A DNA stretch of 44,034 bases. Source: Mesoaciditoga lauensis cd-1655R = DSM 25116. GTDB taxonomy: Bacteria; Thermotogota; Thermotogae; Mesoaciditogales; Mesoaciditogaceae. Of this stretch, positions 33,699 through 36,757 are shown piece by piece. The DNA lies in assembly GCF_000745455.1 (NCBI RefSeq), contig NZ_JQJI01000020.1:1-44034 (forward strand), read 5' to 3'. A program made the position numbers and the translations under genes. Position 1 is the first letter of the stretch, and each line of letters begins with the position of its first letter. The notes beneath the pieces were generated by a model. The model saw only the letters and a program-made list of their open reading frames with translations, ran no database searches and was not told the origin of the DNA.

Positions 33699-34060
33699 CT
33701 CATGTTGCGCGTAAACATTACAAAAGGCATTACAAGAGACATTACAAAAATTCTCTATGAGAAGTGTGAGTCATATTTGACGGAGCATTTTGATTTAAAA
33801 ACCGCTTTTCAAGTGATCAAGACATTTTTTTCGAAGTACTTGTCAGAACGGATTCGCTCTTCTTTCCATCTTACAATTCAAAATATGAGGCACGCTCAGA
33901 CACTCATCCGTAAGTGCTTCGCTTTCTCGACACGTCCTTGTGCCTCTCAACCTCATATTTATGAATTTCCAGATGGAGAGCTCATATGTTCTGACAAGTA
34001 CTTCGAGGGTGAGGTTTAATCCCTTTTTGAAATGCTTTGTAACATTGACGCACGATGTGA
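33699..34060 (+). mobile_element. long palindromic element, family A, copy 4
   Basis: Ends CTCATGTTGCGC and GCACGATGTGA. The outer stem AAGTACTTGTCAGAAC / GTTCTGACAAGTACTT is a perfect 16-bp pair; inner arms as in copy 2. Flanks TTGAAAA (33692-33698) and TTCAAAA (34061-34067) match at 6 of 7 positions, a probable decayed target duplication. A further end-like piece (CTCATTTTGTGCGTCAAG) lies at 33661. Confidence 0.78.
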
Positions 34061-34077
34061 TTCAAAAGTTTAACATA

Positions 34078-34178
34078 AGTCTGTCCCCACTTGTGGGGGA
34101 AGTGTCGGCGGAGCCATTTTGTATAAGAAGTCTGCCCCCGCTTGCGGGGGAAGTGGCGGTGAAACCGCCGAAGGGGGT
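34078..34178 (-). repeat. REP-like palindrome, dimeric copy e
   Basis: First unit CCCCAC-tt-GTGGGG, AAGTGTCGGCGGAGCC; spacer ATTTTGTATAAGAAG; second unit CCCCCGC-tt-GCGGGGG, AAGT, GGCGGT-gaa-ACCGCC, GAAGGGGG. The H2 stem varies by paired changes (CCCCAC/GTGGGG versus CCCCGC/GCGGGG). It directly follows element copy 4. The rest of the 33.6-34.3 kb gap holds no gene I can see. Confidence 0.8.
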
Positions 34179-34290
34179 TGAGACTAACTCCCCACACTAT
34201 GGGTGATTTCTCAATTTTGCTTGAATGTCAAAAACTGGATAGGCTTCAAAAAATATTTTCATACACGTTAGGAAAAGAAGCATTTTAATT

Positions 34291-35601: not shown

Positions 35602-35623
35602 GTTCATCCCCTCCTTTTCAATA

Positions 35624-35660
35624 TAAAAAAGCCGGGGACTTCTTTGTACAAGTCCCCGGC
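35624..35660 (-). terminator. trpB2 attenuator terminator
   Basis: Minus strand GCCGGGGACTT / AAGTCCCCGGC, an 11-bp perfect stem with an 8-base loop, followed by TTTTTTATAT, 23 bases before the trpB2 start codon. Confidence 0.92.
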
Positions 35661-35722
35661 ATTCTGGCTTTTTATTTCAAATTACAACACAAATCAGGTA
35701 CGCCCAGAATACCGGTCGTACC
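35656..35722 (-). promoter_or_regulatory. trp attenuator: pause hairpin and antiterminator
   Basis: Segment 1 GGTACG (35717-35722) pairs with CGTACC (35697-35702) as the pause hairpin. Between them CCGGTATTCTGG (35704-35715) can instead pair with CCAGAATGCCGG (35656-35667) over 12 bp with one G-U, which would disrupt the terminator stem. The first arm overlaps the last Trp codons of the leader, so a ribosome stalled there would favour the antiterminator. Confidence 0.85.
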
Positions 35723-35765
35723 ACCACCATGCTTTGTTTTCGAAACGGTTCTGAATTCGTGCCAT
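35694..35765 (-). CDS. trpL: Trp-rich leader peptide (trpL-like)
   Basis: A 23-codon frame from ATG 35765 (AGGAG ten bases upstream) to TGA 35694. Residues 13-15 are three consecutive tryptophans (NKAWWWYDRY), encoded by TGG TGG TGG at 35721-35729. Three Trp in a row in a short frame before a terminator and a tryptophan-synthase gene is the classic layout of ribosome-mediated attenuation. It starts only 24 bases after the 3' end of the tRNA-Val gene, so both must share a transcript or the leader promoter lies within the tRNA. Confidence 0.88.
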   Translation of the reverse strand: MARIQNRFENKAWWWYDRYSGRT

Positions 35766-35789
35766 TTTCCGTTTGCTCCTTTTTGATAC

Positions 35790-35864
35790 TGGTGAGTGCG
35801 GCAGGGATTGAACCTGCGACCTCTTCCGCGTCAAGGAAGCGCTCTCCCACTGAGCTACGCACTC
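35790..35864 (-). tRNA. tRNA-Val (anticodon GAC)
   Basis: Acceptor stem GAGTGCG/CGCACTC, D arm GCTC...GAGC, anticodon arm CTTCC-TTGACGC-GGAAG (anticodon GAC, reads GUC/GUU), T arm GCAGG-TTCAATC-CCTGC, discriminator A and an encoded CCA. All stems pair fully. It is the first gene of the unit that continues into the Trp leader. Confidence 0.97.
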
Positions 35865-35881
35865 ATCACCTCAACGATGGA

Positions 35882-35911
35882 ATAATATCATAACAATGGA
35901 ATAAAAGTCAA
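35882..35911 (-). promoter_or_regulatory. promoter of the tRNA-Val/trpL/trpB2 unit
   Basis: -35 TTGACT (35906-35911), 18-base spacer, -10 TATTAT (35882-35887) on the minus strand, about 18 bases before the mature tRNA 5' end. Confidence 0.8.
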
Positions 35912-36267: not shown

Positions 36268-36512
36268 TTAGAGGCACACAATGTGCCAAGAAAGCGAATC
36301 TGACAGAGTTTTTTCCTCTCTCCCCATTTTTCTTTTCGAAACACTTGCCAACACTTATGAACTCTCCATCTGGAGACTCACAAAAACGAGGTTGGGAAAC
36401 ACACGGATGTGTTGAGAATATTGAGTGCGCTTTGTTTCTTCTTTTTCTTCCCCTTTTTGAAGTTTGTGTCAAAACATATGAAGACGCCATACAAGATGCG
36501 AAATAACAGAGT
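36268..36512 (-). repeat. palindromic element, family C halves with a truncated family B unit between
   Basis: On the minus strand: CTCTGTTATTTCGCATCTTG and CATATGTTTTGACACAAACTTC (36512-36455), then a truncated B unit (36420-36335, CCTCGTTTTTGTGAGTCTCC and TCGAAAAG-side end), then CTCTGTCAGATTCGCTTTCTTGG and GTGCCTC (36317-36268). The same B-C order occurs in the opposite orientation at 43.66-44.03 kb. No coding capacity. Confidence 0.7.
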
Positions 36513-36543
36513 TTCTTCTTTTTTCTTCTTCCTCTTCTCCTTT

Positions 36544-36719
36544 ATCGAAACACTTGCCGGCACTTATGAACTCTCCATCTGAAGACTCATAAAACGAGGT
36601 TGGGAAACACACGGACGTGTTGAGAAAGCGAAGCACTCATGGACGAGTGTCTGAGCGTGCCTCGTTTTTTGAGTCGTAAGATGGGTAAAAGAGTGAATCC
36701 GTGATGGCAGGTGTTTCGA
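36544..36719 (-). repeat. palindromic element, family B, left copy
   Basis: Outer arms TCGAAACACTTGCCGGCAC and (opposite strand) TCGAAACACCTGCCATCAC; second stem TAAAACGAGG / CCTCGTTTTTTGA; inner hairpins CACTCATggacGAGTGT and ACACGgacGTGT. The core GGCACGCTCAGACACTC is shared with family A, while the stem sequences differ by paired substitutions. It mirrors the copy at 43659-43833. Confidence 0.78.
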
Positions 36720-36757
36720 TAAACATTTTTTGCATGTTAAAAATCGCAACTCTCATT

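Follow-up and report, generated by a model that had tools for sequence, protein, structure and literature searches.

The window analysed here, positions 1 to 44,034 (44,034 nucleotides) of contig NZ_JQJI01000020.1 from Mesoaciditoga lauensis, carries a gene for TrpB2, an enzyme whose physiological role is debated, with serine deaminase, tryptophan synthase and indole rescue all under discussion. The original prediction placed a ribosome-mediated trp attenuator directly ahead of this gene and suggested that the enzyme salvages indole when charged tRNA-Trp runs low. The locus raises the question of whether such an attenuator is present, what it senses, and which metabolic step it would control in this organism.

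The whole feature is encoded on the minus strand, and read on that strand all the coordinates that had been given proved correct (Table 1). The original prediction mentioned neither the strand nor the tRNA-Val(GAC) gene directly upstream with its probably shared promoter, nor the phylum-wide distribution of the leader. The 23-codon leader ORF has its own Shine-Dalgarno sequence and the three adjacent TGG codons that had been proposed for it, and both the pause hairpin and the strong terminator, with its T-run ahead of trpB2, are present. The 12-bp antiterminator could be followed base for base: positions 35715–35704 pair with 35667–35656 in 12 pairs, one of them a G-U, at −20.3 kcal/mol. The 1:2, 2:3 and 3:4 pairings are mutually exclusive, with strand 2 lying inside 1:2 and strand 3 overlapping the terminator arm by 5 nt. 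When the window leader was compared with dinucleotide shuffles, its folding z-score was −3.2, and 1 of 200 shuffles folded equally well. The genome contains 31 TGGTGGTGG sites, and among the 30 that were examined as loci, a short ORF with a downstream terminator occurs at this site only; no further WWW leader of that kind came out of this three-Trp pattern search.

Table 1. Features of the trpB2 leader locus, in window coordinates, and leaders of lone trpB1 genes in other genomes, in the coordinates of their own loci.
Feature	Position	Strand	Basis or detail
Promoter-like site, TTGACT, 18 nt, TATTAT	35882..35911	−	consensus match only; regional count of such sites no higher than in shuffles
tRNA-Val(GAC), encoded CCA	35790..35864	−	3′ end 24 nt ahead of leader ATG
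Shine-Dalgarno AAGGAG of leader ORF	35776..35781	−	sequence; inside the 24-nt tRNA-leader gap
Leader peptide ORF MARIQNRFENKAWWWYDRYSGRT, 23 codons	35694..35765	−	homologous leaders in L004-L011
Leader start ATG	35765-35763	−	sequence
Leader stop TGA	35696-35694	−	sequence
Three adjacent Trp codons (sensor)	35721..35729	−	WW(W) in 63/71 Thermotogota trpB2 leaders
1:2 hairpin (pause hairpin, anti-antiterminator)	35697..35722	−	−13.7 kcal/mol
Strand 2, antiterminator 5′ arm CCGGTATTCTGG	35704..35715	−	pairing, covariation, masked folding
Strand 3, antiterminator 3′ arm CCAGAATGCCGG	35656..35667	−	5 nt common to terminator 5′ arm
Intrinsic terminator 3:4	35631..35660	−	11 bp, 8-nt loop, −22.6 kcal/mol, then TTTTTTATA
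T-rich tail of terminator	35622..35630	−	sequence
trpB2, 424 aa, sole trpB in genome	34333..35607	−	TIGR01415 profile
Lone trpB1 WWW leader (G037)	L215 5734-5796
Lone trpB1 WWW leader (G053)	L232 1482-1375
Lone trpB1 WWW leader (G054)	L233 1488-1381

Conservation of the leader extends well beyond this genome. All eight named Mesoaciditogales relatives (L004-L011), whose TrpB2 proteins are 73–96% identical, carry a WWW leader, and of 71 trpB2 genes surveyed across the Thermotogota whose upstream DNA could be read, 63 have a WW(W) leader. The other eight genes, from Thermotoga-like genomes of two genera (g34 and g35), have no leader upstream of trpB2, and all eight genomes have trpA. Two apparent exceptions, in G066 and G068, are counted among the 63, as longer upstream DNA revealed their leaders. 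In G068 (L235 380-1881) an inserted IS110-family transposase gene separates trpB2 from a WWW attenuator that is itself intact. In G066 (L234 1533-142, minus strand) a WWWW leader and a terminator lie ahead of a Peripla_BP_6 binding-protein gene directly upstream of trpB2, and this periplasmic amino-acid-type binding protein may serve in the uptake of Trp or indole and be controlled by the same attenuator.

The structural parts of the attenuator are also widely kept. In a uniform detailed analysis of 60 leaders, each with its antiterminator tested against 300 shuffles, a terminator was present shortly upstream of trpB2 in all 60, and the antiterminator (median −29 kcal/mol) beat at least 297 of its 300 shuffles in 57; the three leaders in which it did not rise above that level are those of G013, G082 and G097. 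The pattern is specific as well, since 428 ORFs in the examined loci yielded 29 matches to a WW leader with a terminator and all 29 lay ahead of trp genes or a substrate-binding-protein (SBP) gene, the targets being trpB2, a trpB1 or trpBA standing alone, the leading gene of a trp operon, and the SBP gene adjoining trpB2. Outside the phylum, a W-rich leader with a terminator occurred at 2 of 68 trpB2 loci (L026 and L081), and at neither did the antiterminator beat shuffles.

Covariation was summed over 12 clade alignments, with the same pairing slid out of register serving as the control. For the antiterminator, 94% of cells were paired, compared with 36–52% when slid, and changes on both sides of a pair numbered 15 compared with 0–3. 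The corresponding values for the terminator were 96% of cells paired compared with 36–59%, and 18 both-side changes compared with 1–5. Within the window’s own clade, 98.6% of antiterminator and 98.5% of terminator cells were paired; antiterminator covariation there is modest, with two pairs changed on both sides and a score reached by 20 of 500 shuffles, and terminator covariation is strong, with none of 500 shuffles reaching the score. The covariance in related genomes that the original prediction had named as a check was thus found, with both the Trp codons and the alternative pairings kept through compensatory changes. On this comparative evidence we conclude that the leader attenuator is not a chance feature.

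The spacing between the Trp codons and the antiterminator bears on how the device would be operated. From the first Trp codon to the start of strand 2 the median distance is 14 nt (IQR 13–15), across clades with entirely different strand sequences. A ribosome with a codon in its A site should, judging from toeprinting, protect about 12 nt past the first base of that codon, and a ribosome stalled at the first Trp codon would therefore mask the 5′ arm of 1:2 and end just short of strand 2. In our model, a ribosome whose A site holds the first Trp codon covers at most 3 nt of strand 2 in every leader. Masked folding of the window leader up to the terminator loop predicted the full 12-bp 2:3 helix for this ribosome position, and for a ribosome with its A site at the stop codon it predicted that 2:3 is impossible and that the terminator forms, so that the folding of the two alternative structures, also named in advance as a check, switched as expected between the modelled positions. 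Placing the third Trp codon in the A site left strand 2 only partly free and damaged the modelled 2:3 helix, so the critical codon is probably the first. The stop lies too far downstream in 20 of 60 leaders, where a ribosome modelled at the stop codon covers fewer than 4 nt of strand 2; blocking and termination in those leaders would therefore have to rely on the 1:2 hairpin. This corresponds to the textbook attenuation case of rapid ribosome release, in which the 1:2 hairpin does the blocking. Conservation, covariation and modelled folding together support the proposed reading of the element as a ribosome-mediated trp attenuator.

We infer termination and stalling in vivo as follows. RNA polymerase would most likely start at the tRNA-Val promoter and transcribe the tRNA and then the leader. 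With Trp-tRNA plentiful, the ribosome would reach the UGA at the base of 1:2 and cover strand 2, the 3:4 terminator would form, and the attenuated transcript would end as a tRNA-Val precursor plus leader. With Trp-tRNA scarce, the ribosome would stall at the first Trp codon and cover the 5′ arm of 1:2, and strand 2 would stay free; the stalled ribosome would allow 2:3 to form, the terminator would be precluded and trpB2 would be transcribed. TrpB2 could then convert scavenged indole, together with serine or phosphoserine, into Trp.

What this control would mean for the organism depends on the target gene and on the rest of the Trp pathway. The encoded protein is of the TrpB2 form, as had been predicted, scoring 649.9 bits against the TIGR01415 (trpB_rel) profile (cut-off 518.85) and failing the TrpB1 profile TIGR00263 (trpB; 157 bits against a cut-off of 392), and its gene is the single trpB of the genome. 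Searches for trpA, trpC and trpE, each of them positive in 14 of 14 control genomes, found none of these genes in the window genome, which is 99.96% complete. The description of trpB2 as a lone gene therefore turned out to be truer than the window itself could show, as the three genes are absent genome-wide. Because there is neither TrpA nor the upstream pathway, TrpB2 could make Trp only from free indole, and the attenuator here would control indole salvage. The absence of trpA, trpC and trpE strengthens the suggestion of indole salvage, which is the simplest reading of the role of TrpB2 here. PMC11917138, citing Hettwer and Sterner (2002) and Busch et al. (2014), describes TrpB2 enzymes as binding indole with high affinity and using O-phosphoserine.

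Within the window’s family, the only one in which trpC and trpE were looked for, the three genes occur as a set or not at all: G000, G005, G006, G008 and G009 lack them, and G001-G004 and G007 have them. In the relatives with a trp operon, the operon has its own WW(W) leader, and operon-keeping genomes with an intact trpB2 thus carry two separate Trp attenuators. The second attenuator that had been envisaged at a main trp operon accordingly exists in these relatives and is missing from the window genome, where there is no trp operon. In G004, an Athalassotoga-type genome with a full trp operon, two short fragments of a decayed trpB2 are left (L108 8040-8180).

Across the phylum, only 9 of the 63 genomes with a leader have a trpA that scores over the cut-off; of the other 54, which lack it, 32 are at least 98% complete. 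Three more trpA-less genomes have a lone trpB1 behind a WWW leader and a terminator (Table 1). Since leaders precede both trpB2 and lone trpB1, it appears that a stand-alone Trp-forming enzyme of either type is under Trp-tRNA control in this phylum. The parts of the window attenuator, how they are conserved and arranged, and the lack of trpA, trpC and trpE can all be read from sequence, and the element is very probably a ribosome-mediated transcription attenuator that senses charged tRNA-Trp and controls TrpB2, the sole Trp-forming enzyme found in a genome without the pathway.

The position of the leader directly behind a tRNA gene is particular to a few genomes. In the window and in L004, L005, L006 and L008, no more than about 25 nt separate the end of a tRNA-Val(GAC) from the leader, and this gap, 24 nt in the window, leaves no room for a promoter between tRNA-Val and leader. 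In L007 and L009-L011, where ARAGORN found no tRNA upstream of the leader, the leader is instead immediately preceded by a promoter-like site, which in L007 is of the TTGACT...TATGATAT type. At the other Thermotogota leaders scanned, no tRNA was found. In the window, the site at 35911-35882 is the likely promoter of the whole transcript. We infer a shared transcript, such that tRNA-Val, leader and trpB2 are probably cotranscribed in the five genomes and the terminator of the attenuator likely also ends the tRNA transcript in them. We lean towards a history in which an ancient, phylum-wide Trp-tRNA attenuator followed the stand-alone enzyme through pathway loss, so that charging came to gate indole salvage, and in the window lineage was captured by the tRNA-Val(GAC) gene, placing trpB2 on the tRNA promoter and making the attenuated transcripts tRNA precursors.

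Several other readings of the locus have to be weighed against a charged-tRNA sensor. The hairpin might bind Trp or another small molecule as a riboswitch, with the short ORF incidental, as for the Rfam ‘trpB motif’ RF04312. This family is the best Rfam match to the leader (25.8 bits, E 0.08, full length, 35722-35620), and it shares with the leader a hairpin followed by a terminator, an antiterminator in the P1 right shoulder and an occasional position before trpB; it was published from Firmicutes and Fusobacteria as a candidate riboswitch, for which a classic attenuator was not excluded (PMC11109978). However, the match is far under the gathering score of 59 bits, and the Trp run, start and stop of the leader are kept while the hairpin sequences differ completely between clades, unlike in an aptamer. 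As the spacing from the Trp codons to strand 2 is moreover fixed at ribosome length, a riboswitch seems quite unlikely here. In 390 domain-wide genomes and 43 of one class, no RF04312 member was found above the cut-off; weak loci numbered ten in the 390 genomes and one in the 43, and the ten, on inspection, resemble chance terminators and have no Trp leader. RF04312 may itself be a Trp leader-peptide attenuator, and the Thermotogota leaders raise the question of whether this orphan riboswitch candidate belongs to the same class of element. The idea that the hairpin is merely the terminator of tRNA-Val and the ORF a product of chance draws on a tRNA that ends 24 nt upstream and has no other terminator behind it. 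The same set of parts is nevertheless present in the leaders of L007 and L009-L011, where ARAGORN detects no tRNA, and in clades without an upstream tRNA, so that the relatives refute this idea as far as sequence allows, and its probability is close to negligible.

Two further readings concern the direction and the purpose of the control. The leader could act like TnaC of the tryptophanase operons, with free Trp stalling the ribosome and turning on a degradative TrpB2; both are short Trp-containing leaders before a PLP enzyme of indole or Trp metabolism, and TrpB2 is without a TrpA partner here. TnaC acts through Rho and one critical Trp. At this locus, by contrast, there is no Rho-type arrangement, and several Trp codons in a row, with an intrinsic terminator and an overlapping antiterminator behind them, make up the anatomy of attenuation, for which the direction of regulation should be the opposite. 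With the same device preceding biosynthetic trp operons in the same family, and with a standalone TrpB1 having given no indole release from Trp (PMC11917138), TnaC-like induction is very improbable. It is also conceivable that the attenuator is real and TrpB2 has another main job, such as serine deamination, the Trp control being a relic of a former trp operon. Thermotoga-like genomes do keep trpB2 without a leader, and a serine deaminase role has been proposed for TrpB2, although the deaminase activity reported is poor (PMC1854888). A relic would decay, yet the leader is kept in 54 trpA-less genomes and also stands ahead of the SBP gene adjoining trpB2 and of lone trpB1 genes, and we regard a relic as unlikely. 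That selection keeps a Trp-codon attenuator in those 54 genomes argues that trpB2 is there to supply Trp.

Mechanistically, the Trp-tRNA-sensing attenuator is a classical Yanofsky-type device, and thus of a kind already known. It shares with the enterobacterial and actinobacterial trp attenuator (RF00513, Trp_leader) a leader ORF with tandem Trp codons, the 1:2, 2:3 and 3:4 pairings and a U-run terminator before the gene. In contrast to that type, it controls one stand-alone TrpB2 where the genome has no trp pathway, its strand 2 begins 14 nt past the first Trp codon, and its leader follows a tRNA gene; a search with RF00513 gave no match to the leader even at E up to 10, and among the Rfam families there was no T-box match that would indicate a T-box riboswitch. 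The nearest published case is the candidate attenuator before trpB2A of C. diphtheriae, which likewise places a Trp attenuator before trpB apart from the main operon but differs in that its operon includes the partner trpA and the organism has the other trp genes (PMC1262725). The name ‘trpB2’ appears to denote the second trpB gene there. Searches of the open-access literature, which leaves out most subscription journals, turned up no prior report of a Thermotogota trpB2 attenuator, though an earlier one may exist.

The new parts are the TrpB2 target, the phylum-wide conservation through pathway loss and the tRNA-Val fusion. A 2010 survey knew leader-peptide systems only from Proteobacteria and Actinobacteria, to which Firmicutes were then added (PMC2965389), and ribosome-mediated attenuation now gains a phylum, with attenuator control placed on what would be a salvage gene instead of a biosynthetic operon. 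This reading is testable: expression should rise as Trp-tRNA charging falls, and indole should replace Trp only with trpB2.

The two loci outside the phylum that have a W-rich leader are of some interest in themselves. In the deltaproteobacterium UBA1386, which has no detectable trpA, trpB2 is preceded by the leader MTNAATNNWWWWRRL and a strong terminator (L026 2830-3000); the next genes encode a class I/II aminotransferase and an ORF that by eye resembles indolepyruvate ferredoxin oxidoreductase alpha, with no Pfam match. In a rumen Bacteroidales genome, a candidate leader, MCRANIFASNCWWRLKDISGQAL, stands before trpB2 with a terminator-like hairpin behind it (L081 2820-3000). Within the window, the intergenic stretches at 36320-36720 and 33940-34210, one on either side of the trpB2 locus, contain near-duplicate segments (such as CACTTATGAACTCTCCATCTG..GAGACTCA) that have the look of a dispersed repeat.
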